Origin: a virus | IMG/VR virus record: IMGVR_UViG_3300036791_000412 | Coordinates: 1-21,217 of that record | Direction: 5' to 3' (one strand) | Length of the DNA stretch: 21,217 bases | Part shown: piece after piece, positions 976 to 17,405 of the stretch | Position numbering within the stretch: position 1 is the stretch's first letter | How the letters are laid out: each line of letters opens with the position of its first letter | The notes under the pieces: model-generated | Databases searched by the model: none | Told to the model about the DNA's origin: nothing | What the model saw: the letters and a program-made list of their open reading frames with translations, nothing else | Translations under genes and position numbers: made by a program

Positions 976-2743
976 CCTCACCCCCTCGAGGTGGGAGGTG
1001 GAGCAGAGCGCCAGGTTCCGGAACCTCCCGCCCCTTAGGCGCGTCATCCTCGGGAACCGCCCGCTCCGGGTCCAAATCCGCGCGCACAGTGAAATGTTCT
1101 ACCGGGCGCCGTTCACCTCGAGCGTTGACGACCTCGAGGTAGGACACCTCGAGCGCGCCCCGATCCCGGAGCCGATTGATTGCCACCAATACCGCCTGTT
1201 TCCTACGATCGACCCGCTCGAGAATGTCACCACGAGGTAATCGCCGGCCGGCCAATCGGAGCGCGCGGAGCACCTCGAGCTCACACTCGAGCATGACGTT
1301 TTCCCCACTGTCCGCGGTTCCGGGAGGTTCCGGAACCCCCCGCTGCCAGAGCCACCCGTGGGAACCGCCCGCTCCGGTGCCGCGGACCAATTGGGCCGGC
1401 CACGCGCGCTCATCTCGTTGCCCGCGCCAGGCTTTGAGAGCGCCACTCTCCGCGAGGTGGAATCCCACATCGGCCCACCGTTTCCATCCGGACCAACCGC
1501 TAGGCCAGAGGTTTTGCCCATGGCCTTTATGGGCTTCAATCATCACCGCGCAACCGTATTTGCCCCGTAGATAATCTATCCACCGGGGTATTTCCCGAGT
1601 CGTTTTTTCCTCGTTGGGGTCGCCCCCCATCATTTTATACAGGGGCCCTATAACGAATAGGTCCGGTTTGTGTTCGTCTAATTGGGCAATGACGCGCGCG
1701 CGGTCCCCGTCCTTATCGCGGGGATCGTCCAGCACATAACCAGCGGTATCTACCACGAGGTGCACCCGTCCGCCCACCACGGTTTGGTGGAGCTCGGGCA
1801 CGGCGCCCATGAGTTTGCGGAATTCGCGCATGAGGTGGCGCTCACTGTTCTCCAAATCCACGAGGAGCACCGTGAGGGGCTTATGGGTGGCGAGCTCGTC
1901 GCCGGCCAACGAGTTGGTACCCATGGCCGCGGCTACCGCCAATTGGCGCAGTAACGTGGATTTCCCGTAACCCTCGTCTCCGGTAATCATTATTCGCTCG
2001 GTGCGTTCCACGAGTCCGGGCACGAGCCAATCGTGGGTGGGTTCGTTGCGCTCGAGGAGCTCGGTGAGGGTGAAGCTGGCGCGCCCGTTGCGGGGTGCGA
2101 TCATTTGGGGTGCGCCGGCACACCAACGGGCCAAATCGTTGAGCGGTGCTCCGGTGGCCAGGTAGTCGCTCACGTCCCCGTGTTCGGGGAGTCCGGGAAT
2201 GGCGCCGAGCACGGTGACGGTGGGCACCACGGTGGCGAGGGCTTGCGCTCGTTGCGCCGCCGCTCGCCGTCCGGGCTCGTCATTGTCCGCGATCACCCAT
2301 GCCACTTGAGCACCACGGAACCATTGCACAAATTCGGTGCTCCACGTCCACGAGGCGCCGTGACTGGAGGTAGTTGCCGTGAACGCCGGCCACCCGTCAA
2401 TGTCGATTGCGTCAAGTAACGAGAGGCAGTCCTTTTCCCCCTCGACAACCCACACGGTGCCGCCGTACTCACACACCTCGAGGAGGCGCTCGAGCTCGAA
2501 GGGATACCGGACGCTCACGTCACCCGCGGTTTTGAACCGCTTATCCGGTGTCCGGTGAATGGTGTACGCAATCGCGCCGTCCGGTTTTCGGTAACGGTAA
2601 ACAACGTCAACCACCGCGCGCTCCGGGAACGAAAAGCGGTGCTCCGCGCGCTTGAGGGGGTCGCGCGGAGCACCGCCGGGGGTGAGCCTAGAACGAGTCT
2701 GCGTCCGCGCACACGTACACCTCGGTGCCGCGCGCGTGAGCAA
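944..2743 (-). CDS. TOPRIM primase fused to RepA/DnaB-like ATPase
   Basis: About 599 residues. Residues 97-160 form a TOPRIM domain: VWVVEGEKD with the catalytic Glu, then WVIADNDEPGRRAA with the DxD. A RecA-fold ATPase follows, with Walker A GDEGYGKST (about 255-263), Walker B-like VLLVDLEN (about 293) and DLFVIGPLYKMMGG. Residues 480-550 look like a winged helix (RGDILERVDRRKQAVL). The role is probably priming and unwinding at the phage origin. No CHC2 or other N-terminal zinc finger is present. The start is uncertain: TTG at 2743 overlaps the previous gene by 56 bases and lacks a clear ribosome site; GTG at 2611, with GGAG six bases upstream, is the alternative. No DNA polymerase is visible, so a host enzyme is presumably used. 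Confidence 0.9.
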   Translation of the reverse strand: MLTRAAPRCTCARTQTRSRLTPGGAPRDPLKRAEHRFSFPERAVVDVVYRYRKPDGAIAYTIHRTPDKRFKTAGDVSVRYPFELERLLEVCEYGGTVWVVEGEKDCLSLLDAIDIDGWPAFTATTSSHGASWTWSTEFVQWFRGAQVAWVIADNDEPGRRAAAQRAQALATVVPTVTVLGAIPGLPEHGDVSDYLATGAPLNDLARWCAGAPQMIAPRNGRASFTLTELLERNEPTHDWLVPGLVERTERIMITGDEGYGKSTLLRQLAVAAAMGTNSLAGDELATHKPLTVLLVDLENSERHLMREFRKLMGAVPELHQTVVGGRVHLVVDTAGYVLDDPRDKDGDRARVIAQLDEHKPDLFVIGPLYKMMGGDPNEEKTTREIPRWIDYLRGKYGCAVMIEAHKGHGQNLWPSGWSGWKRWADVGFHLAESGALKAWRGQRDERAWPAQLVRGTGAGGSHGWLWQRGVPEPPGTADSGENVMLECELEVLRALRLAGRRLPRGDILERVDRRKQAVLVAINRLRDRGALEVSYLEVVNARGERRPVEHFTVRADLDPERAVPEDDAPKGREVPEPGALLHLPPRGGEDESDIPPDDE

Positions 2744-2948
2744 TGAGCCCGTGCTTACGCAGGGTGGAGGCGCGCGAGTACGCCGCGTTGGCGTTGGCCG
2801 CGGGGCTCATAAACCATTGGCCGGGATTCGCGCGACATTCGGCAATGAATTTCTCGTAGGGGCTCACGTGGGTTCCGCCGGCCTCCCGGGTGCGACTTGA
2901 CTTGGGAAGATCGTCTACGGGTGAATAGGTGATCTCAGAACGTGCCAT
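2688..2948 (-). CDS. Small conserved-looking phage protein
   Basis: 86 residues from ATG at 2948, overlapping the end of the directionality-factor gene by 14 bases. The central part reads YEKFIAECRANPGQWF, then ASTLRKHGLIAHARGTEVYV. This is the 'residues-PGxW-xxx-LR-arg' layout of small actinophage proteins of unknown function. There is no membrane segment or metal site. Longer upstream frames start inside the previous gene and are not needed. Position just before the primase suggests a role in replication, by context only. Confidence 0.75.
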   Translation of the reverse strand: MARSEITYSPVDDLPKSSRTREAGGTHVSPYEKFIAECRANPGQWFMSPAANANAAYSRASTLRKHGLIAHARGTEVYVCADADSF

Positions 2949-4128
2949 TTTCGGGTGTCTCCTCGCGCTCTTGAATCCAATGTTCCCATTGGCCGGTTTC
3001 CGTTCGGCGGATGAATAGTTTTCGTCCCGAGCGAGTGGTAAACACGTAACCACTCGGTATGGGGTCCATCGTGAGTTGGTTGTTTTTTATGTCCGAGAGC
3101 CGGCGCCCGATTGCCGCGATTTCCTCAGCATCGAGCTCGGCCCACGAGGTTTTGGGTTCGTCATTCCGGCGCGCGGTTTCCAGGATGGCGAGGCAGGCCC
3201 GCCGTTCGTCCAAATCCACGGTTTCTAAATTGGGCCATAGGTCGCGCATCATGGCGAACAGGTGGCGAACATCGCGCCCCCGGGTATCGGCCGGCACGGG
3301 ATCGGTGAGCACCTCGAGGGTGGGCTCGAGGATGGCCGGCGCGGTCGGTGCGCTCGAGCTCGTATCGGTGAGCGGTGCCGGCGCCGGGCTCGAGGCACCC
3401 CGATCTATCCGCGGTGCCGGTGGAGGGAGCCCAACCACCGTGAGCGCCGCCGCGGCTTCAACTGCGGCCACCGGTGCCGGCGCCGCCTCGAGGGCGTGAG
3501 GTGAGAGCACAACGTCCAATACGGGGATGGTGTACCGGTGCGGAGGTTGGCCAGGCCGGCGCGCCACCCGCTGCTCGAGCCGGAGCCGGGCCGCGGCGAG
3601 GTGTTCGGCACGACGTTGCGCGAGCCCGAGCGCGAGCTCCACCGCGGACGCGAGCTCGCCGCTCGCGTAGTAGCTCCCGGTCACGAGGCGCCACACCCCA
3701 AACACCGAGGCGAGCTCGGGCACAATGAGGGAAAGTCGGGTGACGGCTTCACATTTGCGCTCGCCCTCGAGCGCGCACACACAAGGTTGGGGTTCGTCGC
3801 CTCGAGTCTCGGTGAAACCATCGCAGCGCCGCTGACACCCGGCCTCGGACCACAATTCGTAATGCTGGGAAAACGCCAAATCCGCGGGGGGTAGTAATAC
3901 CTCGAGCTCGTGCGCCTCGGTGAGAACCTCGAATTCGTCAAGTCCGGTCGACGGGTTCCGCCACGGGTGCGCATCGCCACCGAACACCCGCGCCGCCGTG
4001 TCAATGAGGGTTTGTCGGCCGCTCGTGAACCGGAACCCCTTGAGCGCGCGCGGACGGTCACCGTCCACCTCCCCCAAACGAATATGTCCGATCACGGCAA
4101 CGCGGCGTTGGGTGTCAAGTATCGGCAT
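2935..4128 (-). CDS. Gp3-like recombination directionality factor
   Basis: 397 residues from ATG at 4128, preceded by AGGAGG. The N-terminal 165 residues match my memory of the phiC31/phiBT1 gp3 family: IRLGE near 16-20, FRFTSGRQTLIDTAARVFGG (32-51), PPADLAFSQHYELWSEAGC (80-98), a Cys cluster (C98, C102, C116, C118, C126) likely binding zinc, then FGVWRLVTGSYYASGEL. In phiC31, gp3 binds the serine integrase and switches it from integration to excision. A Pro/Ala-rich linker (about 225-300) leads to a C-terminal helical domain and a short beta-rich tail; phiC31 gp3 is shorter (about 244 residues). A serine integrase lies 2 kb upstream on the same strand, so they are a plausible cognate pair. 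Some gp3-like proteins may serve other early functions. Confidence 0.85.
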   Translation of the reverse strand: MPILDTQRRVAVIGHIRLGEVDGDRPRALKGFRFTSGRQTLIDTAARVFGGDAHPWRNPSTGLDEFEVLTEAHELEVLLPPADLAFSQHYELWSEAGCQRRCDGFTETRGDEPQPCVCALEGERKCEAVTRLSLIVPELASVFGVWRLVTGSYYASGELASAVELALGLAQRRAEHLAAARLRLEQRVARRPGQPPHRYTIPVLDVVLSPHALEAAPAPVAAVEAAAALTVVGLPPPAPRIDRGASSPAPAPLTDTSSSAPTAPAILEPTLEVLTDPVPADTRGRDVRHLFAMMRDLWPNLETVDLDERRACLAILETARRNDEPKTSWAELDAEEIAAIGRRLSDIKNNQLTMDPIPSGYVFTTRSGRKLFIRRTETGQWEHWIQEREETPENGTF

Positions 4129-4306
4129 TCCCGGCCTCCTCGTTGGGCTCGAGCTCGTGCCATTCCGCGGGTTGGTGATCGGTGAGCCACCCGTCCGGGT
4201 GCAAGCGGTGCCAACGTTGGGCGTACCACACCGCAAATGCGAACACCACGAGGGTGAGCACCGAGGCAATGGCCGCGACTGCCACCAAATCCCAAACCAT
4301 GCTCAT
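4115..4306 (-). CDS. Small single-pass membrane protein
   Basis: 63 residues. Starts with ATG at 4306, fused to the stop of the nuclease gene as ATGA, and preceded by GAGGGGAC. Residues 4-27 are a continuous hydrophobic segment (VWDLVAVAAIASVLTLVVFA) followed by WYAQRWHR, so the C-terminal part is expected in the cytoplasm. The tail is acidic (ELEPNEEAGNADT). It overlaps the gp3-like gene by 14 bases. No family recognised; phages often have such small early membrane proteins, some of which exclude other phages, but nothing here shows that. Confidence 0.75.
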   Translation of the reverse strand: MSMVWDLVAVAAIASVLTLVVFAFAVWYAQRWHRLHPDGWLTDHQPAEWHELEPNEEAGNADT

Positions 4307-5166
4307 GCCGTCCCCTCGAGGTAGGCCCCAAATACCGAGCGCCGGGCTATCACCTCAACAAATTGTTGGGCCCCGCGCACGTAGAGGAATGCGTCCCGCA
4401 CCCCTTCGTCCACCCGTACCGGGTACATGCGCCACCCGCTCGGGGTCAGGTGCACAATGGCGGCGCCGTCCACCTCGGGGGTGGGTACCGCATACGCTAA
4501 TTCCGCTTTGTTTATGTAGTAGCGCCGTGCGCTCCGGGTGTTGTTTTCGCTCTCGGGCACATAGACGCGGAAGGGGCACACCAACGGTGCCCACCGGTAC
4601 GCCGCGAGCTGGAGCGCCCATTCCGGAAACGGGCCCCTATTGGTTTCATTGCGGGAGGTTTTGTAATCCAACAAATAGCGCCGGCCGTCCGCCAACGTCG
4701 CCACCGCGTCAAGGGTGCCGGCATACAAGTATTCCGGATCAAAGACGGTGCATTCCACCGCCTCAAATTCCGGGCCAACGGTTTTCCGCCACGCGTCAAA
4801 TTGGCGCACGAATGGTTGCGCCTCGGGATGCACGGCGCGATCCCCACCGAGCACGAGCACCTCGAGGGCCTTGTGTACCTCGGTACCACACGCCGCGTCG
4901 GAGAGCTCGTGTTCTTGCGCCCAATTTTTGGAGCTCGTGAGGAACGCCACCGCCTCCTCCTCCGCCAGGGTTTGAGTGGTTGCGGTGCGCCGATAGGCGG
5001 TGCGGGCCACGTTGCGCATTTTCCACACCTCGAGCCCGGTTTTGTGAAGGGTGGCCAGGATGCTCGTGACCGATTCGCACACGAGCGATTCCTCGGGCAG
5101 TACCGGCACCCGTTGCGGGCCCGGCCACACGGTGCCCACCCGTTCGGAAACCTCCGCCCACGTCAT
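4303..5166 (-). CDS. PD-(D/E)XK nuclease, RecB/Cas4-like
   Basis: 287 residues from ATG at 5166 (ATGA with the stop of the preceding gene). The RecB-family nuclease motifs appear in order: GTEVHKALE with His98, AGTLDAVA with Asp153, LLDYKTSR with Asp167 and Lys169, and QLAAYRW with Gln186. These match the His, Asp, Asp-x-Lys, Gln signature of RecB/Cas4-type nucleases. No four-cysteine iron-sulphur cluster as in true Cas4 is seen. In phages such enzymes process DNA ends for recombination or replication. No single-strand annealing protein or recombinase is recognisable beside it, so the partner is unknown. Confidence 0.9.
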   Translation of the reverse strand: MTWAEVSERVGTVWPGPQRVPVLPEESLVCESVTSILATLHKTGLEVWKMRNVARTAYRRTATTQTLAEEEAVAFLTSSKNWAQEHELSDAACGTEVHKALEVLVLGGDRAVHPEAQPFVRQFDAWRKTVGPEFEAVECTVFDPEYLYAGTLDAVATLADGRRYLLDYKTSRNETNRGPFPEWALQLAAYRWAPLVCPFRVYVPESENNTRSARRYYINKAELAYAVPTPEVDGAAIVHLTPSGWRMYPVRVDEGVRDAFLYVRGAQQFVEVIARRSVFGAYLEGTA

Positions 5167-5411: not shown

Positions 5412-5689
5412 GGCAACGGGATCAGTACGGGCCCGAGCGCAACCGTGAGCGCGGACAACAACACATTGGCGTAACGCTCGTCCGCATAAATTAGGAATCG
5501 GGTAAGGTACCCGTCCCCTAACCACAAATCCCGCGCTATCTCATATGCGGCGCGTTCCCCTTGTGATAATAAGTCATATTCCGAGGGAGGGAATTCCCGT
5601 ACCACCTCGAGCTCACCGAGGGTTTCTACTCCACGGGGCACGAGCTCACTAATGAGGATGGCGGCTACCATGAGCGGGGTTTTCGGCAT
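5408..5689 (-). CDS. Hypothetical early protein
   Basis: 93 residues from ATG at 5689 with GAGG about 9 bases upstream. The sequence starts MPKTPLMVAAILISEL and contains acidic, helix-prone stretches (FPPSEYDLLSQGERAAYEIARDLW is one region) before a hydrophobic end (VLLSALTVALGPVLIPLP). That C-terminal segment of about 18 residues could insert into a membrane. The longer reading of this frame upstream is Arg-rich and unlikely to be translated. No family recognised. Confidence 0.6.
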   Translation of the reverse strand: MPKTPLMVAAILISELVPRGVETLGELEVVREFPPSEYDLLSQGERAAYEIARDLWLGDGYLTRFLIYADERYANVLLSALTVALGPVLIPLP

Positions 5690-5831
5690 GATTGGTTGCC
5701 TCGTTTCGGGCCCGCGGACGCGGTGGCGGCGCCGATGCACGGACCCCACGCTCGAGCGCGGGGCGAAGAATCTCCGCAATCCGGGTGAGCACCTCGAGGG
5801 GCGCGCGCGGAGGCGGTGCATTTTGCGGCAT
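5649..5831 (-). CDS. Possible first gene of the early operon
   Basis: 60 codons from ATG at 5831; TTG at 5843 is another possible start. A short helix (PLEVLTRIAEILRPALERG) is followed by a Pro/Arg/His-rich tail. It overlaps the next gene by 41 bases and has no strong ribosome binding site, so it may not be real. It is the only frame that fills the space between the promoter near 5940 and the gene starting at 5689. Confidence 0.4.
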   Translation of the reverse strand: MPQNAPPPRAPLEVLTRIAEILRPALERGVRASAPPPRPRARNEATNHAENPAHGSRHPH

Positions 5832-5912
5832 GGCGGAGCGCAAATGGTGCGCTCGTGGGCGTCAGATTTCAAGGATGAATCCGGCGCCCCGAGCTCCGCG
5901 GCACCCCACACC

Positions 5913-5966
5913 TCACGGTGAACCCCCGCAACCGTGAACCGTAGAACCCCACACCGAATCCCTCAA
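5913..5966 (-). promoter_or_regulatory. Candidate early promoter with operator-like inverted repeat
   Basis: On the minus strand TTGAGG (5961-5966) and TACGGT (5938-5943) are separated by 17 bases, a reasonable sigma-70-type pair. Just downstream a perfect 7-bp inverted repeat, TCACGGT (5931-5937) and ACCGTGA (5913-5919), covers the expected transcription start, where a repressor could act. The site lies in the only sizeable gap upstream of the early operon. The pairing and spacing are seen in the sequence; the function is inferred. Confidence 0.45.
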
Positions 5967-5996
5967 GGGGTGTGACCTGCGGATTCCCGGAACGCG

Positions 5997-6038
5997 CAAC
6001 ACCCCCCGCGCCGGCAACCGGTGGCACGAGGGGTGTTG
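5997..6038 (-). terminator. Hairpin downstream of the integrase gene
   Basis: A perfect 9-bp inverted repeat, CAACACCCC (5997-6005) and GGGGTGTTG (6030-6038), with a 24-base loop that is itself GC-rich and partly self-complementary. It starts 45 bases after the integrase stop. There is no T tract, so it may be a factor-dependent or weak terminator, an RNA-processing site, or a protein-binding site. It would help separate integrase transcription from the early operon. Confidence 0.35.
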
Positions 6039-6082
6039 GCGTCGCGTCCGCAAGGAGCGCAACCACAACGGTAGGGGCAGCG

Positions 6083-7609
6083 TCAACCGGCCGGCGGCGC
6101 CTCCCGGCCGATCGTCACCCGGGCCGGGTCGAACGTTCCCGTGCGCCCACCGGCCGGGCGCACCCACACCGTGTGGCCCGTGGCCATGAACACGGCGCGG
6201 TGCTCCTCGGGGGTGAGGGCGTCCCCCTCGAGCATTCCCGCGAGCACCGCCCCGCGCCCGAGGTACGGGGCGAATGCGTCCGAGCTCGTCAACCGGGCGA
6301 GCTCCGCCGTGAGTTGCGAAATTCGGGTTTCGGTTTCGCGCTTCGCTTCGCCGTACTGCGCGCGGGTGAGCTCGTGCGCCTTGAGCATCACAAACCATTC
6401 CTCGAGGCGCTCGTGCTCGAGGTTGAGCTCGTGGACCACCCGCCGCTCGGAACCATCCTCGGACGCCACGAGGTGCTCGAGCTCGGGCCCGTCCGCATAC
6501 GCCACGAGCCACTCGTGCGCGATCCGTTCCACATGGTGCGCGATCACGGCGCACCGACCGCACACGTTGCGCCCCGCAATTTTGGAGCACGCGAAACCGG
6601 CCGGCCGGTTGCCCTTCGCGGGTGACCTACTCATGGTCGCCCCGCACACCGAACCATCCTCGAGGGTGCCGGCACACCGAACCACACCCGTCCACGCGCC
6701 TTGCCGGGCGGGGGTGCGCCGGCCTCGAGCTCGCCGGGCGAACAGGGTTTCGAGGCGCGCCCACGTTTCCGGGTCAAGGATGGCCGGCCACACGTCCCGG
6801 CCGATGATTTCGCCCCGGTGGGTTTGGTGGCCCGCGTTGCGCGGGTTGGTGAGGGTCCGTTGTACGTGGCCGGGTGACCATTGGCCCGCCATCCGCCCAT
6901 CTCCGCGCGCGGGGTTGCGCTCGAGCTCGGGCCGGTGTTGTGCGGCACGGTTCGCGGCGTAGGGTTTCGCCACACCGGCCGCGTTCCACTCGCGCGCAAT
7001 GCTCGAGCACGAGGCGCCGGCCAACACCCGCCGGGCCGCGTCCCGGATCAATTCCGCCTCGGGCTCGTGAATCGTGAGCCCGTCATTGCGTTCCGCACCG
7101 TGGCGAATGCCGTACCACCCGAGCGCGACCACGGGTGCGGTGGGAATGTGCGCCGCACGTTGCTTTGCCTTTTGGCGCAGTATTCGCCGTTGCTTATCCG
7201 CCGACTCTTTGCGGGCCATTGCCGTGAGCAGAGTTTGGGTGAATTCGTCGTCCGGGTTCGCCGGGTCAAATACCACCGTATTGGTAACCACGAGCTCCGG
7301 TGCCCCGTATTTCCGGGCGTCCCGAATGAATAGGGCTTGCTCGAGGTTGTCCCTCCACAATCGGTCCCCGTGGAACGCCACTACCAAATCCGCGGATTCG
7401 CCGCCGGCCAGGGCGTCACACATGGCCCCGTAAGCCGGCCGATCCTCGGGCGCCTCGTTGTCGAACGCGGACACCCCGTGATCAGTGAACACCCGCACGA
7501 GCTCCGCGCCGTGTTCCGCCGCCCGAGCTCGGCAATCCTCGAGTTGCGCCTCGAGGTTGTCCCCGATCCGGGAGTCCCGGAGGTAGGCGAACGCGGTTTT
7601 GGCGCTCAC
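6083..7609 (-). CDS. int: Large serine integrase
   Basis: 508 residues. The GTG at 7609 is chosen because GAGGTGAG precedes it and the protein then starts MSAKTAFAYLRDS, placing the nucleophile Ser13 next to Arg11 as the family requires. Residues 5-150 are the resolvase domain (DHGVSAFDN, AFHGDRLWRD, TAMARKESADKQRRI). Residues 155-275 are the recombinase DNA-binding domain (LGWYGIRHG, SIAREWNAAGV, VQRTLTNPRNAG). Residues 285-350 are a Cys-rich zinc ribbon, and about 370-440 the coiled coil that regulates synapsis. It integrates phage DNA at attP/attB by double-strand cleavage and strand rotation. It is divergent from the gene at 7781, and a gp3-like directionality factor is encoded downstream. 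Confidence 0.95.
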   Translation of the reverse strand: MSAKTAFAYLRDSRIGDNLEAQLEDCRARAAEHGAELVRVFTDHGVSAFDNEAPEDRPAYGAMCDALAGGESADLVVAFHGDRLWRDNLEQALFIRDARKYGAPELVVTNTVVFDPANPDDEFTQTLLTAMARKESADKQRRILRQKAKQRAAHIPTAPVVALGWYGIRHGAERNDGLTIHEPEAELIRDAARRVLAGASCSSIAREWNAAGVAKPYAANRAAQHRPELERNPARGDGRMAGQWSPGHVQRTLTNPRNAGHQTHRGEIIGRDVWPAILDPETWARLETLFARRARGRRTPARQGAWTGVVRCAGTLEDGSVCGATMSRSPAKGNRPAGFACSKIAGRNVCGRCAVIAHHVERIAHEWLVAYADGPELEHLVASEDGSERRVVHELNLEHERLEEWFVMLKAHELTRAQYGEAKRETETRISQLTAELARLTSSDAFAPYLGRGAVLAGMLEGDALTPEEHRAVFMATGHTVWVRPAGGRTGTFDPARVTIGREAPPAG

Positions 7610-7652
7610 TTGCTCACCTCTGCGATCATTGGTTGGTCGCCTTTCCTCGTGG

Positions 7653-7708
7653 CCGGGTGCTGTACCCGTTTTACAACCACGTCCAAACGGTACCGGGTGT
7701 GATACCCG
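7653..7708. promoter_or_regulatory. Paired CGGGT-N5-ACCCG sites; integrase operator or attP candidate
   Basis: Two copies of CGGGT-N5-ACCCG occur at 7654-7668 and 7694-7708, with centres exactly 40 bp apart, in the 171-bp region between the integrase start and the divergent plus-strand gene. On the minus strand a possible integrase promoter is TTGGAC (7681-7686), 16 bases, TACAGC (7659-7664), so the first site would cover the -10 box. The region between the sites also has an imperfect inverted repeat (GTACCCGTTT against AAACGGTAC). Either a dimeric repressor uses both sites, or the roughly 50-bp segment is the attP core, which in serine-integrase phages usually adjoins int. The rest of 7610-7780 shows no gene. 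Confidence 0.45.
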
Positions 7709-7780
7709 CAAAGCAAATTGTAGACGGGGTGCGCTCGAGGGCGTAGCGTCCGCGCCTAACGCACCGAGCGCGGAGGGCCA

Positions 7781-8089
7781 ATGGCAACCACCCTGATGCC
7801 CCTAGCTTTCGAGAAATGCCGGACGTGGGGCCATATGTGGGACGATTTTCACCCGCACGGGAAACGCGCTCCAGGTTGGGGCACCCGATTCTCGTTGCGG
7901 TGTGAGCGGTGCGGCACCGAGCGCCACGACACCGTGGACTCGTTAGGTGAGCTCTCCGTCCGCGAGTACGTTTACCCCGAGGGCTACAAAATGGGGCGCG
8001 ACGAAACCCCGAGCCGGCCAACCCTGCGCCTTGACTTGTTGGCGCATATGCGCTGGGCCTCGAGGAATGGCAACCGACAGACGGGATAA
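7781..8089 (+). CDS. Small zinc-ribbon-like phage protein
   Basis: 102 residues from ATG at 7781 with GGAGGG just upstream. Cys13 and His17 (CRTWGH) plus Cys41 and Cys44 (LRCERCGTERHD) look like a split zinc site; then come LSVREYVYPEGY and RPTLRLDLLAHM. I recognise this layout from uncharacterised proteins common in actinophages. With the next gene, 6 bases downstream, it is one of the only two plus-strand genes in the window and diverges from the integrase. That position suggests a regulatory or lysogeny-related role, by context only. Confidence 0.8.
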   Translation: MATTLMPLAFEKCRTWGHMWDDFHPHGKRAPGWGTRFSLRCERCGTERHDTVDSLGELSVREYVYPEGYKMGRDETPSRPTLRLDLLAHMRWASRNGNRQTG

Positions 8090-8095
8090 CTCCAC

Positions 8096-8665
8096 ATGGC
8101 AACCGAACCCCGCACCCCGCGCACGCGGCGCAATCCCACCCCCGAGCTGTTCGCTCGGGTGCTCGAGCTTGACGCCGAGGGTGGCCCCGAGCTCGTGGCC
8201 TCCGAGCTCGGATACAAACGCTCCTATGCCGTTTCGGTGATCCGGCGCGCGCGCGGCGGTGCGCTCGGCGCTCGAGGGGTCGGGCTCGGGCAACGGATCG
8301 GGCATTTCCTCGAGGAATGCCGGAACGCCAAAACCACACCCGAGGGGCGAGTCTCGCTCGGTGCGCTCCCGGGCTTCCCGATGCACACCAACGAGCCCGC
8401 GATCGTGGAGAAGGCAATTGGGGTGTACCAAACCCGCGCCGCGGCGGCAACGTCCCCCATTGCCGAGCTCCGCGCGCGCCAACGGGTGATTGACCTGCGC
8501 GCCGGCCTCGCGCTCCTCGAGGCGCACCCCTCGAGCTCGAGCGCGCGGGCCACGTTCCTCGAGCATGGCGCCCAATGGGCTACCGATAACGGGATTAGCT
8601 ATGCCGCGTTTCGGGAAATGGGCGTTCCGGCCAACGTGTTACGTGAGGCAGGGATACGCCGCTAG
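8096..8665 (+). CDS. HTH protein, candidate regulator
   Basis: 189 residues from ATG at 8096. Residues 15-50 (TPELFARVLELD, then GGPELVASELGYKRSYAVSVIRRA) have the form of a helix-turn-helix. A central helical part (AIGVYQTRAAAA) leads to a C-terminal WATDNGISYAAFREMGVPANVL segment, a motif shared by actinophage and actinobacterial DNA-binding proteins. No other clear immunity repressor is visible in the window, so this divergent gene is the best candidate to bind the sites near 7654-7708. Its stop overlaps the holin stop on the other strand (CTAG). Confidence 0.8.
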   Translation: MATEPRTPRTRRNPTPELFARVLELDAEGGPELVASELGYKRSYAVSVIRRARGGALGARGVGLGQRIGHFLEECRNAKTTPEGRVSLGALPGFPMHTNEPAIVEKAIGVYQTRAAAATSPIAELRARQRVIDLRAGLALLEAHPSSSSARATFLEHGAQWATDNGISYAAFREMGVPANVLREAGIRR

Positions 8666-8835
8666 TGCGCGAGGAGCGCGACCACGAGGAGCCCGAGCCC
8701 GGCGCTCAATAAGGCACGGTAGATATCCCGGGCGTAGCCGGCCACGAGGGTGGCCACCCCAAACACCGTTGCCGAAACAATGAGGTACACCAACGGTGCC
8801 CCGGTGGGGTGATTCACGAGGTAGCCCGCGAGCAT
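8662..8835 (-). CDS. Putative holin
   Basis: 57 residues. The ATG at 8835 overlaps the endolysin stop by one base (TGATG); the longer frame adds an Arg-rich N-terminus inside the endolysin gene and is rejected. Two hydrophobic segments (APLVYLIVSATVFGVATLVAG and ALLSAGLGLLVVALLA) are joined by a charged turn (YARDIYR). A two-pass small protein directly after the endolysin is typical of a holin, which permeabilises the membrane at lysis. It is the last gene of the late operon. Confidence 0.75.
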   Translation of the reverse strand: MLAGYLVNHPTGAPLVYLIVSATVFGVATLVAGYARDIYRALLSAGLGLLVVALLAH

Positions 8836-9608
8836 CACGAAACCGCCCCGACAGGTGCCCCGTAGTAGTTGGCGTCCCCGTAGGCGAAAACGCCGCCATC
8901 CTCCCCGAGGAGCCAATAGCCGGCGCCGCTCGGAGTGGCCACCAAATCCACGATGGGCCCCACGAGCTCGGGAATGGTATTCGCTCCGCCGTAGTAGCGC
9001 GCGTCGCCGTAAGCAAACACGGCGCCCCTACTGTCTACGATCCAATACCCGCGTCCGCTCGGGTGTGAGGTAATGCCCATGGCGCCGCTCCCGGTTTGGG
9101 GTTTCGGTGGGTTGGCATTGCCAACCATGGCGTTGATGCTCGGAATTTTGGCAATGAGGTGTTGCCCACAGCACGCGGTAGCGTTCCCGGACGCGTCCCG
9201 GTGCGGGCCCGTGATTGCCGGGTGCCGGGTTGCGCCCCGTTGGTGGAGCTCCGCCACGCACCACGCGATTGACTCGAGCATCCGTGCCGCCGGGAGCTCG
9301 AGCTCGTAGTTGCCCATTGCGCAAATCGCGTGGCAAATTGAGTTATGGTCTTTTGTGGAGGCAGTATCGTGCCCCGGTCCACGGGCCACGAAAACCGAAC
9401 CGTCCACGTCCACCACGTAGGTGTATTCCACGTCCACGTAACCGCTCGAGATTGCGCCCCGTTGTAACGAGCGCATCCCCGAGGCGCCGTGAAGCCCGGT
9501 GGAGCCCGTGTGGTGGAGCCAGAGCTCGGGGGTCGGCATGGCAATCATGGCCGCGGGGGTGTGGAGCGGATCGGCGCCCCACCCGCCCCGGTCGATCACG
9601 TCAACCAT
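8835..9608 (-). CDS. N-acetylmuramoyl-L-alanine amidase endolysin with FAYGDA repeats
   Basis: 257 residues from ATG at 9608, which overlaps the stop of the preceding gene by 8 bases. Residues 1-155 are an amidase_2/PGRP fold: DRGGWGADP, LHHTGS with a zinc His, and GPHRDASGNATACCG with the second His and the Cys ligand. It would cut the amide bond between MurNAc and L-Ala in the cell wall. The C-terminal 90 residues hold two repeats of the form GYWIVDSRGAVFAYGDARYYG and GYWLLGEDGGVFAYGDANYYG. Such repeats occur in secreted actinobacterial proteins and probably bind the wall or adopt a propeller-like fold. No signal peptide, so release needs the adjacent holin. Confidence 0.92.
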   Translation of the reverse strand: MVDVIDRGGWGADPLHTPAAMIAMPTPELWLHHTGSTGLHGASGMRSLQRGAISSGYVDVEYTYVVDVDGSVFVARGPGHDTASTKDHNSICHAICAMGNYELELPAARMLESIAWCVAELHQRGATRHPAITGPHRDASGNATACCGQHLIAKIPSINAMVGNANPPKPQTGSGAMGITSHPSGRGYWIVDSRGAVFAYGDARYYGGANTIPELVGPIVDLVATPSGAGYWLLGEDGGVFAYGDANYYGAPVGAVS

Positions 9609-9813
9609 CGCCGCCGGCCTCGGTGGCATCCTCGGCGGCATCCTCGGGCGTCAGGTCAAGCGCCGCGGCTTGCGCGTCCAGGTGCGCCGCTTGGGCGTTC
9701 AAGTCCGCCGCCTGGGCGCGGAGCGTTGCCGCTTGGGCCTCAAGTTTGTCCTGGGCTAGGTCCGGGTCCACGGGGGTGCTCGAGCTCGAGCTCGGGGGTG
9801 GGGTTTGGGTCAT
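9601..9813 (-). CDS. Small coiled-coil protein with four heptad repeats
   Basis: 70 residues from ATG at 9813 (ATGA with the preceding stop). A Pro/Ser/Thr-rich N-terminus (PPPSSSSSTP) is followed by four tandem 7-residue units AQAAxLx at residues 26-53, preceded by DKLE. The pattern of Leu and Ala spacing predicts a parallel coiled coil; the tail is acidic (EDAAEDATEAGGDG). No family recognised. Its place between tail and lysis genes suggests a virion decoration, a chaperone, or an accessory lysis protein. Confidence 0.65.
   Translation of the reverse strand: MTQTPPPSSSSSTPVDPDLAQDKLEAQAATLRAQAADLNAQAAHLDAQAAALDLTPEDAAEDATEAGGDG
9655..9738 (-). repeat. Four tandem 21-base repeats encoding heptads
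   Basis: Four consecutive 21-base units each encode AQAA-x-L-x inside the gene at 9601-9813. At the DNA level the units are similar but not identical, so the repeat is old or is held by selection on the protein. Copy number could vary between related phages. Confidence 0.7.
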
Positions 9814-13653: not shown

Positions 13654-14109
13654 TCAATCGCTCCAATGCCTTATTACTTTGTCCATTGCCTTGTGGTATT
13701 TGGCAATGTCCGAGCTCTCCCGAGCTCGTATCGTGGGCCATAGGAAATACCCGTGTTGCCCACGGTGCGGTGGGAATTGGTGGGTATGGGGTTTTGCCCC
13801 GCCGCCAAATTCGGCACCGAAGAAAATGCCGCCCGCCTGGTGTTTGTGCTGCCCGATCCGCTTCGTGCCGCCGGCCACGATTCGAGGCACGCGATCCGAA
13901 CGGGTCACGAGCGAATCCGCCGCGATCCGCTGGAGCGCACCCACCCCTACCGCCTCCGCTTTGGCGGCGCGGAGCGTCCCCTCCGCGATCACGCGCGCGG
14001 CGGCGCGGAGCTCCCGGTTCGCATCCTTGCCGAGCCTCGAGGTCGCGCGGAGCGCCTCTTTGAGCCCCACAATTTGGATGCTCTGAGAGACGGAGCCGGG
14101 CGCCGGCAT
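13654..14109 (-). CDS. HK97 gp10-like protein
   Basis: 151 residues from ATG at 14109, overlapping the stop of the frameshifted chaperone (TAATG). SIQIVGLKEALRATSRLGKD, helices rich in Arg/Ala, and AGGIFFGAEFGGG followed by YFLWPTIRARESSDI match the HK97 gp10-like group (head-tail or tail-completion proteins). In most siphoviruses this gene precedes the major tail protein; here it lies between the tail chaperones and the tape measure. The family call is from the motif pattern only. Confidence 0.7.
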   Translation of the reverse strand: MPAPGSVSQSIQIVGLKEALRATSRLGKDANRELRAAARVIAEGTLRAAKAEAVGVGALQRIAADSLVTRSDRVPRIVAGGTKRIGQHKHQAGGIFFGAEFGGGAKPHTHQFPPHRGQHGYFLWPTIRARESSDIAKYHKAMDKVIRHWSD

Positions 14110-14602
14110 TACCGGAACCGTTGCGCTTGAGCTCGGGCCGCGGATCGGCGTTGCTCCCGGTTCATTTCCTCAGTCCGCTCGTTGAGGATAGCTAAAGCGG
14201 TGAGTACCACCGTGGCCTCCTCGTTGGCCCATGTGCTCCACGGAATGCCGGTTTCTATGGCAAGTTGCGCGAGGAGATATCCGGGGTGCTCTCGGGGAAA
14301 GGGCCTTGCACCACCTCGGCGCCGCCCTCCTCGAGGTCTTCCATGTCCGGGAAACCGTCAAGGAGCATGAGCCACTCATCCCACGTGCCCGTAAATTGGT
14401 TCGTCCGGGTTGCCGCCTGGTAACAGAGCGCCGCTAAATCGTTGAGGTGGATATCCCCCTCGAGCGCCACCGACGTGAGGAAATTTGATCCTTGAGCAAT
14501 CTCGGCGCGGGCAAAATCCCCGAACGTGAGCCGGGCCTCTATCGTCCGGCCATCCGTCAGGGTTTGCCGGAAACGGTGCCCAATGTCCGCCGTGATTGCC
14601 AC
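14109..14602 (-). CDS. Tail assembly chaperone G-T fusion made by -1 frameshift
   Basis: Ribosomes on the G frame slip back one base at TTTCCCC (14294-14300) and continue from 14294 to a TAA at 14109-14111, giving about 164 residues. The shifted part begins REHPGYLLAQLAIETGIPW and continues STWANEEATVVLTALAILNE, ending in an Arg/Gln-rich helix. This is the usual T-domain layout of siphovirus chaperones, which coat the tape measure and recruit major tail protein. The gp10-like gene starts on the last A of the TAA, supporting the end point. The third frame over the same bases gives an Arg/His-rich peptide and is not used. Confidence 0.85.
14255..14602 (-). CDS. Tail assembly chaperone G
   Basis: 115 residues from GTG at 14602, which overlaps the major tail protein stop (TAGTG). 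The sequence MAITADIGHRFRQTLTDGRT and FGDFARAEIAQGSNFL, then TGTWDEWLMLLDGFPDMED, has the layout of actinophage tail assembly chaperones: a beta start, helices and an acidic end. It is the unshifted product and should be more abundant than the G-T fusion. Confidence 0.88.
   Translation of the reverse strand: MAITADIGHRFRQTLTDGRTIEARLTFGDFARAEIAQGSNFLTSVALEGDIHLNDLAALCYQAATRTNQFTGTWDEWLMLLDGFPDMEDLEEGGAEVVQGPFPESTPDISSRNLP
14294..14300 (-). other. -1 programmed frameshift site
   Basis: The minus strand reads T TTC CCC in the G frame, a classical XXXYYYZ heptamer. Both tRNAs can re-pair after a one-base slip (TTT CCC). It lies 13 codons before the G stop, and the -1 frame downstream is open for 61 sense codons. 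No strong downstream hairpin was identified by eye. Confidence 0.85.
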
Positions 14603-15072
14603 TATGCCGCCGAGCTCGCCGGCTCGCGGATACCACCCACCGCCGCGGTCACGGCATACGCGAGGGCCGGTGTTCCGATAATCGGCAACGACGCCGTGAA
14701 GATTGCCACCGCCTCGTGGGTACCGAGAATCTCACCCGGGGTGCACACACACTCGCCGGTAATCGTGGGATTGGTGGGCCCCGTTGGGGCATTCATGGGC
14801 ACGAGGGAGAACGGTACCGTGACTCGCATATTGTCCCACAGAAAACGCCACGCGTTTGTGGTGTCGAACGCCTGATACCCCTCGAGCTCGAGGGTGAACG
14901 TAATTCGTCCCGGGAGTTGCGCCGGCCCGCACAGGGTGCCGGTATCCAACAGATTGACGTTGTTGGTGATTTCGGCCCGGGTCAGGTCACAAGTCACCTC
15001 GAGGGGTTGGCCCGCGGCGATCGGCCCGAGGGTGACCGTAGGGTTGTCGATAATGAATGCCGGGTTACTCAC
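14602..15072 (-). CDS. Major tail protein
   Basis: 156 residues from GTG at 15072 with AGGTGACAAC upstream. It lies directly before the tail chaperone gene, where the tail tube protein is expected. It is beta-rich: SNPAFIIDNPTVTLGPIAAGQ, PGRITFTLELEGYQAFD, WRFLWDNMRVTVPFSL, then ITGECVCTPGEILGTHEAVAIF. Length and composition fit a short tube subunit. Identity rests mainly on position and fold-like pattern. Confidence 0.8.
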   Translation of the reverse strand: MSNPAFIIDNPTVTLGPIAAGQPLEVTCDLTRAEITNNVNLLDTGTLCGPAQLPGRITFTLELEGYQAFDTTNAWRFLWDNMRVTVPFSLVPMNAPTGPTNPTITGECVCTPGEILGTHEAVAIFTASLPIIGTPALAYAVTAAVGGIREPASSAA

Positions 15073-15081
15073 GTTGTCACC

Positions 15082-15501
15082 TCACAAAATGACGCGGAGC
15101 TCACATTGGTAGCCGGGGAATTCAGCGTTCCCCCGGGTCACTAAAACCGGGGTTGCGGTCACCGTGACCGCGCGGCGCACCGTGCCGGCCAACGTCACAT
15201 TGCCTTGGATCGCGCCGGCAAACGTATCCAGAAACGATTCCAGGTCAATTTGTGCGGGCCGTAATGCGCCGATCGGGACCACGAGTTTGATATCCAGCAA
15301 CGCGGACGTGAGCCCGTCATATGCGGAGTCCTGCCACGTAACGGTGGCCATGCCCACGAGCACACACGGTGGGGTGAACGTGTCCGCAAACCACGCGTTC
15401 ACCCGCACCGGGTCACCGTTGAGGGTGGCCCCCTCGAGCACGGAAACGAGGGCGTCGCGCACCGCTCCGAGCCCCAACACCTGCGGGCACGCCACCGCCA
15501 T
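15082..15501 (-). CDS. Tail terminator-like protein
   Basis: 139 residues from ATG at 15501, two bases after the previous stop; a GTG at 15528 would overlap. It starts with a helix (LGAVRDALVSVLEG), followed by WFADTFTPPCVLVGMATVTW, LDIKLVVPIGALRPAQIDLESFLD and a final beta part (VTVTATPVLVTRGNAEFPGY). This alpha-then-beta arrangement matches tail terminator or neck proteins (lambda gpU / HK97 gp10 neighbourhood). Its position just before the major tail protein agrees. Confidence 0.72.
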   Translation of the reverse strand: MAVACPQVLGLGAVRDALVSVLEGATLNGDPVRVNAWFADTFTPPCVLVGMATVTWQDSAYDGLTSALLDIKLVVPIGALRPAQIDLESFLDTFAGAIQGNVTLAGTVRRAVTVTATPVLVTRGNAEFPGYQCELRVIL

Positions 15502-15503
15502 GC

Positions 15504-16091
15504 TCACGCGAGCACCACGCACCGCCACGGGGCCTCGAGCGCGTCAATATCCCGGTCAAACGGTGGCACCCGCACCGCGCCGAGCTCACCGAGCCCCACG
15601 AGCCCCTCCGGGGATGCTCGGCGCCAGTAGAGCCGGGCGCCCCGCATGAGCGCGGCGTGGTACACATCGGCCGGCACGTTGACGGTGGAGCCTTGCGAGC
15701 TCGTGGGCGCACCGAGGGGCACGGTGAGAGCCACGGAACCGAGCACGGTGGCGCTCGAGTCGTGGAGCTCGAGGGTGTACGGGCCCGGGGTGGCGTACAC
15801 ATGGCCGGCGCCCGTCACCCCGTAGCCCGTGTTATCGGTGTTTCCGTCGCCCCATACCCATGAGAACGGGCCTATGCCGTAGCCCACGGTGGTTGCGGTC
15901 ACCCCGTTGGGGTCCGTGCTCGAGGGTGAAACGGTGAGCTCCACCAACCCGAACGTTTCCGGCCGGCATCGGGCAATTTGCTCGAGCTCCACCGCGTCGC
16001 AGATTTCGCCTAGTAGGGCGTCATCTATGGCGTCCGTGGAACCGATACGCAAATAACCCTTGAGGCTGGAAACGTCAAGGTAGAGACTCAC
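15504..16091 (-). CDS. Head-tail connector with inserted PKD-like domain
   Basis: 195 residues from GTG at 16091 with GGGGGAGGTG upstream. Residues 1-45 (SSLKGYLRIGSTDAIDDALLGEICDAVEL) and 126-195 (VPADVYHAALMRGARLYWRRASPEG, then FDRDIDALEAPW) together match the helical HK97 gp6-like connector. Between them residues 49-125 form a separate beta domain: LTVSPSSTDPNG, FSWVWGDGNTDNTG, HVYATPGPYTLEL, VALTVP. That is the W-x-W-GDG ... H-x-Y-xxPG-x-Y signature of PKD/Ig-like domains. Such domains usually bind carbohydrate or decorate capsids and tails; here one would project from the neck. The gene sits right after the capsid gene, as expected for a connector. Confidence 0.8.
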   Translation of the reverse strand: MSLYLDVSSLKGYLRIGSTDAIDDALLGEICDAVELEQIARCRPETFGLVELTVSPSSTDPNGVTATTVGYGIGPFSWVWGDGNTDNTGYGVTGAGHVYATPGPYTLELHDSSATVLGSVALTVPLGAPTSSQGSTVNVPADVYHAALMRGARLYWRRASPEGLVGLGELGAVRVPPFDRDIDALEAPWRCVVLA

Positions 16092-16106: not shown

Positions 16107-17405
16107 TTATTTGGCGTTGGCGGATTTGTGCTCAGCCTCGTCGCTCACGTCAAGGGGCAACGGCGGAACACCCGTGATCTTCACGAATCCGGCCGGCGCC
16201 GGGAAGCACCACGCCACGTAACCGTAATAGGCAACCACGAACCCAAGAATTGACGGTTCCGTTACCGAGAGTTGCCCACCAACCTGCTCGTAGAATTCCG
16301 CCAATTGCGAAACACCTACGATGATTGTTCCGGCCGGGAGGAATTGGTCTACCACGAGTTGCAACCCGTAAACGTTGCCGTTGAACCCGGTTTGATCGAC
16401 CCGGCCGGTGGCGTTCATCGGGCCAATCGTGGCGAACAGGGCCCGTCCGGTGGTGTCATGCAACGCGGCGATTGCCGCCCACATATCCGGGCTTACCCAC
16501 ATGGTGTCCGGGAACAGGTTTACCGCGCTGTAAACCGTTGCCGTAGCTTTGGCAATTGCCGCTTGGAGTCCGGGCCCGTCCGCCGATGCCGCCGCCAGCG
16601 TGGCGGTAATGGCGGTGGAAAACGCGGTACAGAACCCCGCGTCCGTTTGCCGGGCATACACCGTTGCCATATCGTCAATGACGATTTGGAGGAGCGCGGG
16701 TTCGGTCCAGTCCCGGTCCTGGAATGAGATATCCAGGGTGCCGCCATACGTGGCCTTGTTGACGGTAACCGGGGTAATCAGCATTTTTTGTGACGCGAGC
16801 TCGGTTTTTTCCGCCGATTGCACACCGCTAAGGGTGTGTTGCGTCACGAGGGGACGGGTGAAGGAGCGTCCGCCGGCCGGTAACGCGCGCCGGTTCGCGC
16901 TCGAAACCGTGGGCCGGGCGTTGGCAATGAGGGAAACCACGGGCCCGAGAATCGGGATTGGCACAATGCCGAGGTTGTCCGGCACGGTTTGGTTGGCCAC
17001 GACCCGCTGGAGCCGGGCCTCCGCCTCGGGGTCGCCGGAACGTGCGGCCACGAACGTGTGGACGTACTCACCCGGGGAACGGAAAAGCCTTTGGAGCTCC
17101 GCCTCGGGATCGGGCACCCCGAGCGGTGATAGTGGGCTGACCGCTTGCCCGGAGCGGGCCATGGCGCCGCTCATACGGTTTCCGAGCTCGTCGCCGGCGG
17201 CGCGGTGCTCGAGGAGCTCCACCCATTCGCCTCGTTGCGAGTCGGAACGCTCGAGCCGGCCGCGCGCGTCCGCCAGGGTCGATTCCTCGGTTTCGGTGAG
17301 GTCGCGGTCTTCGTCCGTGGCCCGTTGGAGCACGGAGTCAATCGTGGCGAGGGCCTCGGTGCGTTGCCGCTCGAGGCGCTCAATAAAGGTCGGAATCGGT
17401 GCCAT
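16107..17405 (-). CDS. Major capsid protein, HK97 family
   Basis: 432 residues from ATG at 17405 with GGGAGG upstream. Residues 1-110 form a charged, coiled delta/scaffold region (FIERLERQRTEALATIDSVL, LTETEESTLADARGRLERSD) that the protease encoded upstream probably removes. The HK97 core follows: NLGIVPIPILGPVVSLIANARP, SAEKTELASQKMLITPVTVNK, YGGTLDISFQDRDWTEPALL, MWVSPDMWAAIAALHD, and FVVAYYGYVAWCFPAPAGF. It assembles the icosahedral head. Confidence 0.92.
   Translation of the reverse strand: MAPIPTFIERLERQRTEALATIDSVLQRATDEDRDLTETEESTLADARGRLERSDSQRGEWVELLEHRAAGDELGNRMSGAMARSGQAVSPLSPLGVPDPEAELQRLFRSPGEYVHTFVAARSGDPEAEARLQRVVANQTVPDNLGIVPIPILGPVVSLIANARPTVSSANRRALPAGGRSFTRPLVTQHTLSGVQSAEKTELASQKMLITPVTVNKATYGGTLDISFQDRDWTEPALLQIVIDDMATVYARQTDAGFCTAFSTAITATLAAASADGPGLQAAIAKATATVYSAVNLFPDTMWVSPDMWAAIAALHDTTGRALFATIGPMNATGRVDQTGFNGNVYGLQLVVDQFLPAGTIIVGVSQLAEFYEQVGGQLSVTEPSILGFVVAYYGYVAWCFPAPAGFVKITGVPPLPLDVSDEAEHKSANAK

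Follow-up and report, generated by a model that had tools for sequence, protein, structure and literature searches.

The head-tail adaptor encoded by the viral DNA analysed here carries, within its helical fold, a domain that its homologues identify as belonging to the PKD type of Ig-like domains. This domain sits in a slot between the second and third helices that is usually empty in small actinophages, and very closely related viruses are found both with and without the domain. The following sections describe the adaptor gene and its surroundings, the identity of the inserted domain, its distribution among related adaptors, and the roles that it may play in the neck of the virion.

The adaptor gene and its surroundings

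The window, that is, the whole stretch of DNA that was analysed, corresponds to a virus record that is classified as linear and has 21,217 bases, and its source is probably a small, actinobacterial phage; two scans of prokaryote genomes found no relative. The open reading frame at 16091..15504 on the minus strand encodes an Ad1-type head-tail adaptor of the kind represented by HK97 gp6, SPP1 gp15, T5 p144 and RcGTA g6. Its parts and the neighbouring genes are as follows, each with the evidence for its assignment.

15504..16091 (-): head-tail adaptor (connector), 195 amino acids, GTG start; split HK97 gp6-like helical fold plus a PKD-type domain; PHROG 5938, structure model, profile match at both ends to adaptors with a native beta domain
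15948..16091 (-): N-terminal helical half of the adaptor, residues 1-48 (helices 7-14 and 24-41); alignment with insert-free sisters, structure model
15717..15947 (-): PKD-type Ig-like domain, residues 49-125; Pfam (window and homologues), profile search of solved structures, fold searches
15681..15716 (-): linker that follows the PKD domain (residues 126-137), missing or strongly shortened in sisters without the insert; alignment, structure model
15507..15680 (-): C-terminal helical half of the adaptor, residues 138-195 (DVYHAALMRGARLYWRRASPEGLVGLG...); PHROG 5938, alignments
15082..15528 (-): tail terminator-like protein, the sole gene separating the adaptor from the major tail protein; PHROG 17840, E 1.1e-6
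16107..17405 (-): major capsid protein (MCP) of the HK97 fold family, a likely contact of the adaptor ring; PHROG 2263, E 1.3e-48, and Pfam PF25209
18085..19392 (-): portal protein, the adaptor's binding partner; Pfam PF04860, E 7.1e-46

The family assignment comes from residues 136-185 of the adaptor, which match PHROG 5938 (head-tail connector) with an E-value of 1.5e-9, and from an insert-free relative, L005, which matches the same family over its whole length (E 1.6e-14) and also phrog_40, 'Ad1' (7e-5); both bear out the first-pass annotation, which had described the protein as a gp6-like helical connector. The Pfam family PF05135 stays just under its cut-off (19.5 bits in L005 and 20.0 bits in the insert-free L017 vs 21.2 bits). 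In the sister alignments, the best-conserved part across the adaptor family is the C-terminal helical half. Moreover, the adaptor gene is found directly after the major capsid protein gene and ahead of the terminator and major tail protein genes in the window, in the related loci L001, L003, L014 and L017, and in named actinophages.

Some other features of the window were also noted. The major tail protein gene (14602-15072), recognized by its match to PHROG 4574 (E 9e-16), gives a sub-threshold match to the Ig-like Pfam family Big_3_5 (E 0.03), which is probably either chance or the usual tail-tube beta fold. Within 15082-16091, the adaptor and the major tail protein are separated by a single terminator-like gene. 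It thus seems that no distinct head-closure (stopper) gene is present, a trait shared with T5, whose connector consists of portal, adaptor and terminator only. A later gene, at 13654-14109, is similar to PHROG 5, 'tail completion or Neck1' (E 3e-4), and the one at 8835-9641 encodes an amidase endolysin (Pfam Amidase_2, E 3.6e-8) with GYW...FAYGDA-type repeats in its C-terminal part, possibly a wall-binding region. The large protein at 6083-7711 looks by eye like a serine recombinase, with an N-terminal resolvase-like stretch (AYLRDSRIGDN) and a zinc-ribbon-like middle, which suggests a temperate phage.

Identity and predicted structure of the inserted domain

Residues 49-125 of the adaptor reading frame map exactly onto 15947..15717, where a W-x-W-GDG beta domain of the PKD kind had been annotated at first pass; the coordinates are exact and the motifs are present. 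The insert reads GPFSWVWGDG ... GHVYATPGPYTLEL, its PKD motifs being WVWGDG and HVYATPGPYTL, which fit the patterns W-x-(F/W)-GDG and H-x-Y...G-x-Y-(T)-L. When compared with the insert-free sisters, the inserted stretch spans about residues 49-137, slightly longer than the domain itself because of the C-terminal linker.

Against the Pfam PKD families (PF00801 and PF18911), the window's own score, taken alone, is only suggestive: 18.1 bits and E 0.0029 for PKD_4, vs a curated cut-off of 27 bits. The PKD identity is settled, as far as sequences can do so, by the homologues. The aligned insert of L003 (GPFEWDFGDG...THTYTTAGSYTVTL), from an adaptor 54% identical to that of the window, matches Pfam PKD with an E-value of 1e-9 and 38.7 bits (cut-off 23.5), and that of L014 (GPFTWTFGDG...GHVYDAAGTYATTL) matches PKD_4 with 4.4e-7 and 30.3 bits (cut-off 27). 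The W, GDG, H, Y, G, Y and L positions are invariant in all three inserts. Additionally, a profile of the adaptor family finds the PKD domains of the collagenase ColH (E 4e-6) and weakly touches the T5 decoration protein pb10 (PDB 5lxk, E 0.022). A Pfam PKD search of the whole window record at E 0.001 returned nothing, matching the weak score of the window's copy, and revealed no second PKD domain. The GC content is 68% in the insert and 73% in the C-terminal half of the adaptor, and the insert is not marked out as foreign. The idea that it is a chance low-complexity stretch was ruled out by the homologues scoring above the Pfam cut-offs and by the structure model.

Six sequences went into the model, which is of a monomer and has a mean pLDDT of 74.6 and a pTM of 0.49, so the angle between the PKD domain and the helices is unreliable. 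It contains helices at 7-14 and 24-41, strands over 51-133, a helix at 141-159, and C-terminal helices including 177-194. In the strand region, most ten-residue blocks have a mean pLDDT of 76-92 and the last one, which belongs to the linker, 67; the C-terminal helices are of low confidence, and the final eleven residues fall below 50. Residues 51-133 are predicted to form an Ig-like beta-sandwich of their own, flanked by a helical part on either side, and not to be part of one continuous fold, in line with the annotated arrangement of a beta domain set between two helical halves.

The top Foldseek matches of the insert in the PDB are PKD domains (4tn9, 1l0q, 2y72, 4l9d and 6aem; E 4.5e-4 to 7.7e-4). 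VIA-align ranks first a domain from a surface glycan-binding protein (7kv5; Z 9.1, 69 residues, rmsd 1.8) and then FN3 and PKD domains with Z 7.6-8.5; since the FN3 domains have Z values similar to those of PKD domains, the fold by itself is not specific to PKD. When the window model is compared with the RcGTA adaptor (6toa_D), residues 1-159 align with Z 7.7 over 96 residues and an rmsd of 4.9, a match that is weak alone.

Relatives with and without the domain, and the slot in other adaptors

A PKD-type domain in the adaptor slot was found in three viruses, namely the window, L003 and L014, the latter two being the only hits when viral contigs were scanned using the insert as query. Three close relatives, L001, L005 and L017, lack the insert, and over the best segment the adaptors of L001 and L005 are 73% and 81% identical to that of the window, respectively. 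The contig IMGVR_UViG_3300036846_000165 (29672 bases) carries both L014, with the PKD domain, and L017, without it, as two copies of the module. Their DNA is 87.3% identical over L014 positions 1519-5075 and 86.0% identical from 5445 to 8339; the two blocks are separated by a large break, which falls within the adaptor gene. The encoded proteins share 92.8% identity in the portal, 90.0% in the major capsid protein and 91.4% in the terminator. Judged by these identities, L014 and L017 form a natural filled and empty pair.

The MCP tree places L014 and L017 as each other's sister (100/100 support) and requires a minimum of two state changes; the trees of the terminator and of the major tail protein were too weak for this purpose, and the changes were counted on the MCP tree. 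By this count, the PKD domain appears to be optional in the family, having been gained and/or lost at least two times. The three PKD adaptors are 66-71% identical in the core and 36-40% in the insert, and this similarity of the inserts suggests that there was probably one acquisition followed by later loss, the alternative being the exchange of segments via recombination. Stretches resembling insert edges remain in two insert-free adaptors (PSLFEQL in L017 vs PSPFEQL in L014, and PPPTDP in L001 vs PSSTDP in the window); they would fit an internal deletion of the insert, and are suggestive only.

On the shared contig, the same head-neck-tail module is present twice (L014 1519-8339 and L017 1498-8093, DNA 86-87% identical), representing either adjacent related proviruses, a variant concatemer, or an assembly that joined two strains. 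In the insert-free copy, two additional genes lie between the terminase and the portal (L017 384-1495), one close to an LtfC-like beta-sandwich domain (Pfam E 9.6e-6, just under the cut-off) and the other with a short collagen-like stretch.

In small actinophages, the adaptor is normally free of the insert and 106-119 amino acids long. Some examples are the adaptors of RRH1 (118), Barebow (110), Decurro (118), Kels (111), Penoan (119) and EricDab (106, by coordinates), as well as that of a plasmid-borne module of Amycolatopsis (116). In 138 Microbacterium and 70 further records, the query-covering hits are of about 300-350 bases among the matches listed, and no record of the phage collection covers the PKD part. 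A sequence search of the window adaptor against 50,697 phage records gave no match, with the same result for L005. The adaptors of small actinophages (RRH1 gp8, Barebow gp6, Decurro gp8 and a Microbacterium phage gp6) belong to PHROG 5938, the same family as that of the window, and these phages share with it the order capsid, adaptor, terminator and major tail protein and a compact genome, but their adaptors differ in being shorter and devoid of the insert. A search for connector homologues without the insert, proposed in the first-pass annotation, thus yielded L001, L005 and L017, plus the small actinophages checked.

At eighteen other viral loci (L018-L035), the adaptor has about 200 amino acids, a length similar to that of the window adaptor. 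These adaptors were considered as carriers of the same PKD insert and rejected, as they have the same length but an ordinary beta domain without PKD motifs. Compared by profiles with the window adaptor, their helical ends are homologous (hhalign E 1.3e-14) and the beta parts align at low confidence. The model of this native-domain form, with helices at 10-17 and 25-43, a beta region at 54-138 and a helix at 145-158, follows the plan of the window model; over both halves (model range 4-195) it matches HK97 gp6 with Z 9.6 and 90/95 residues, and the Mycofy1, RcGTA, DT57C and T5 adaptors with Z 8.3-9.3, its top solved matches being adaptors and phage baseplate or tail domains. In comparable pairs, the native set is 63% identical in the core and 39% in the beta domain, vs 66-71% and 36-40% in the PKD set. 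At the level of these identities, the PKD insert appears to diverge in the manner of native attachment domains, and nothing points to unusual diversification.

Some solved adaptors also have a beta domain. In T5 p144, an attachment domain (residues 46-110) lies inside a helix bundle (1-45 and 111-170) and is anchored to the portal (PMC11313276). This adaptor (PDB 9ilp, 170 amino acids) thus resembles that of the window in having its helix bundle split by an inserted beta domain, and differs in that the window slot holds a PKD-type domain; no sequence match between the two was found. The RcGTA adaptor has a beta-strand attachment domain that binds capsid proteins (PMC7296036). It is composed of a helical tube domain, the attachment domain and a C-terminal hook (g6, Rcc01688, PDB 6toa/6te8), and the window model aligns to it over residues 1-159; the RcGTA domain is not called PKD and its capsid binding was demonstrated, whereas the domain of the window is known from sequence and a model. 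The adaptor of roseophage R4C, like that of the window, has an accessory Ig-like attachment domain at its periphery, for which the authors favour local stability over adsorption (PMC10276861). That domain is N-terminal and, according to them, outside the usual phage Ig families (PMC10276861), while the window's is of the PKD type and inserted between helices; the R4C adaptor is not among the solved-structure matches listed, and the likeness is drawn solely from that paper.

A beta domain therefore often occupies the slot between helix 2 and helix 3, as in T5 p144 and RcGTA, and it is the PKD kind of domain that is unusual there; the attachment domain of R4C is Ig-like, though N-terminal. The claim that such a domain is unusual inside a connector holds for the rare PKD type and not for beta domains in general; likewise, the PKD form is not universal in the family, while some beta domain in the slot is widespread.

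Possible roles of the domain in the neck

From what is seen in the adaptor family, we infer that twelve copies would form a ring under the portal, with the helical bundle carrying out the conserved function of binding the portal clip and the terminator. Twelve PKD domains would then sit at the outer edge of the ring, at the junction of head and neck, and from this presumed position they would most likely serve in accessory attachment, bracing the ring against portal and capsid vertex. We lean, by a little, towards this analogy with other adaptors, that is, an adaptor whose optional PKD domain acts in attachment or bracing. In the closest pair, L014 and L017, the capsid and portal stay 90-93% identical despite the presence or absence of the domain, and since L017 does without it while having near-identical partners, bracing, if any, would not be essential. 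Against bracing, the known phage PKD domains, such as those of T4 Hoc, are surface adhesins (PMC13370021), an analogy that speaks for display.

The PKD domains could instead be displayed outward at the neck, binding glycans of the host envelope or other surfaces and keeping the phage near its host, a role close to the collar-like, sugar-binding ring proposed at first pass, which we find possible but doubtful. In mycobacteriophage Douge, the capsid and the tail tube bear Ig-like domains that bind the mycobacterial surface and glycan fragments (PMC13033339), and the PKD-containing T4 Hoc is a mucus-binding adhesin, as stated in PMC13370021; these two precedents would favour display, as would the best VIA-align match of the insert, from a surface glycan-binding protein, and the dispensability of the domain, which is a property of decorations. 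Nevertheless, function cannot be read from a shared fold, and the scores of FN3 domains are nearly as high. T4 Hoc and T5 pb10 (PDB 5lxk) are, like the window protein, virion proteins with an Ig/PKD-type domain, but they are separate decoration proteins of the head, whereas the window domain is within a neck ring protein, in the attachment-domain slot near the head. Moreover, the residues invariant in the three PKD domains mostly belong to the PKD fold as such (GPF.W, GDG, H.Y and G.Y), and the insert diverges no faster than native attachment domains do. As the known beta domains of adaptors contact the portal or the capsid, a free-standing sugar-binding collar is not the default reading. A full adhesive collar, in which a PKD adhesin placed in the adaptor slot in twelve copies would be toggled by gain and loss between close strains, is unlikely.

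The patchy distribution, with its minimum of two state changes, the insert-free adaptors that are the rule in many actinophages, and the edge-like stretches of L001 (PPPTDP) and L017 (PSLFEQL), which would be expected after internal deletion, could also reflect a passenger that is almost neutral, with a mobile PKD domain being tolerated without strong selection at an exposed loop that accepts insertions. That the fold and motif are intact in three viruses whose adaptor cores are about 66-71% identical suggests, on the contrary, that selection has maintained the domain since their common ancestor, making a passenger improbable. An origin by drift, in which the family's native attachment domain became PKD-like and nothing was acquired, would account for a position that is the same as in L018-L035 and for a similar length, but it is very hard to reconcile with the other comparisons and we give it hardly any weight: the profiles align the helical ends clearly and the beta parts only at low confidence, the native model matches adaptors and baseplate or tail domains while the top Foldseek matches of the window insert are PKD domains, and a beta domain is entirely absent from the nearest relatives.

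With an accessory attachment domain as the preferred reading, these results correct the view of a beta domain inside a neck connector as exceptional. The slot of gp6-like adaptors is interchangeable, and may be empty or filled with a native attachment domain or with a PKD domain. Additionally, the L014 and L017 pair makes it testable whether Ig-like domains of the neck brace the ring or bind the host.
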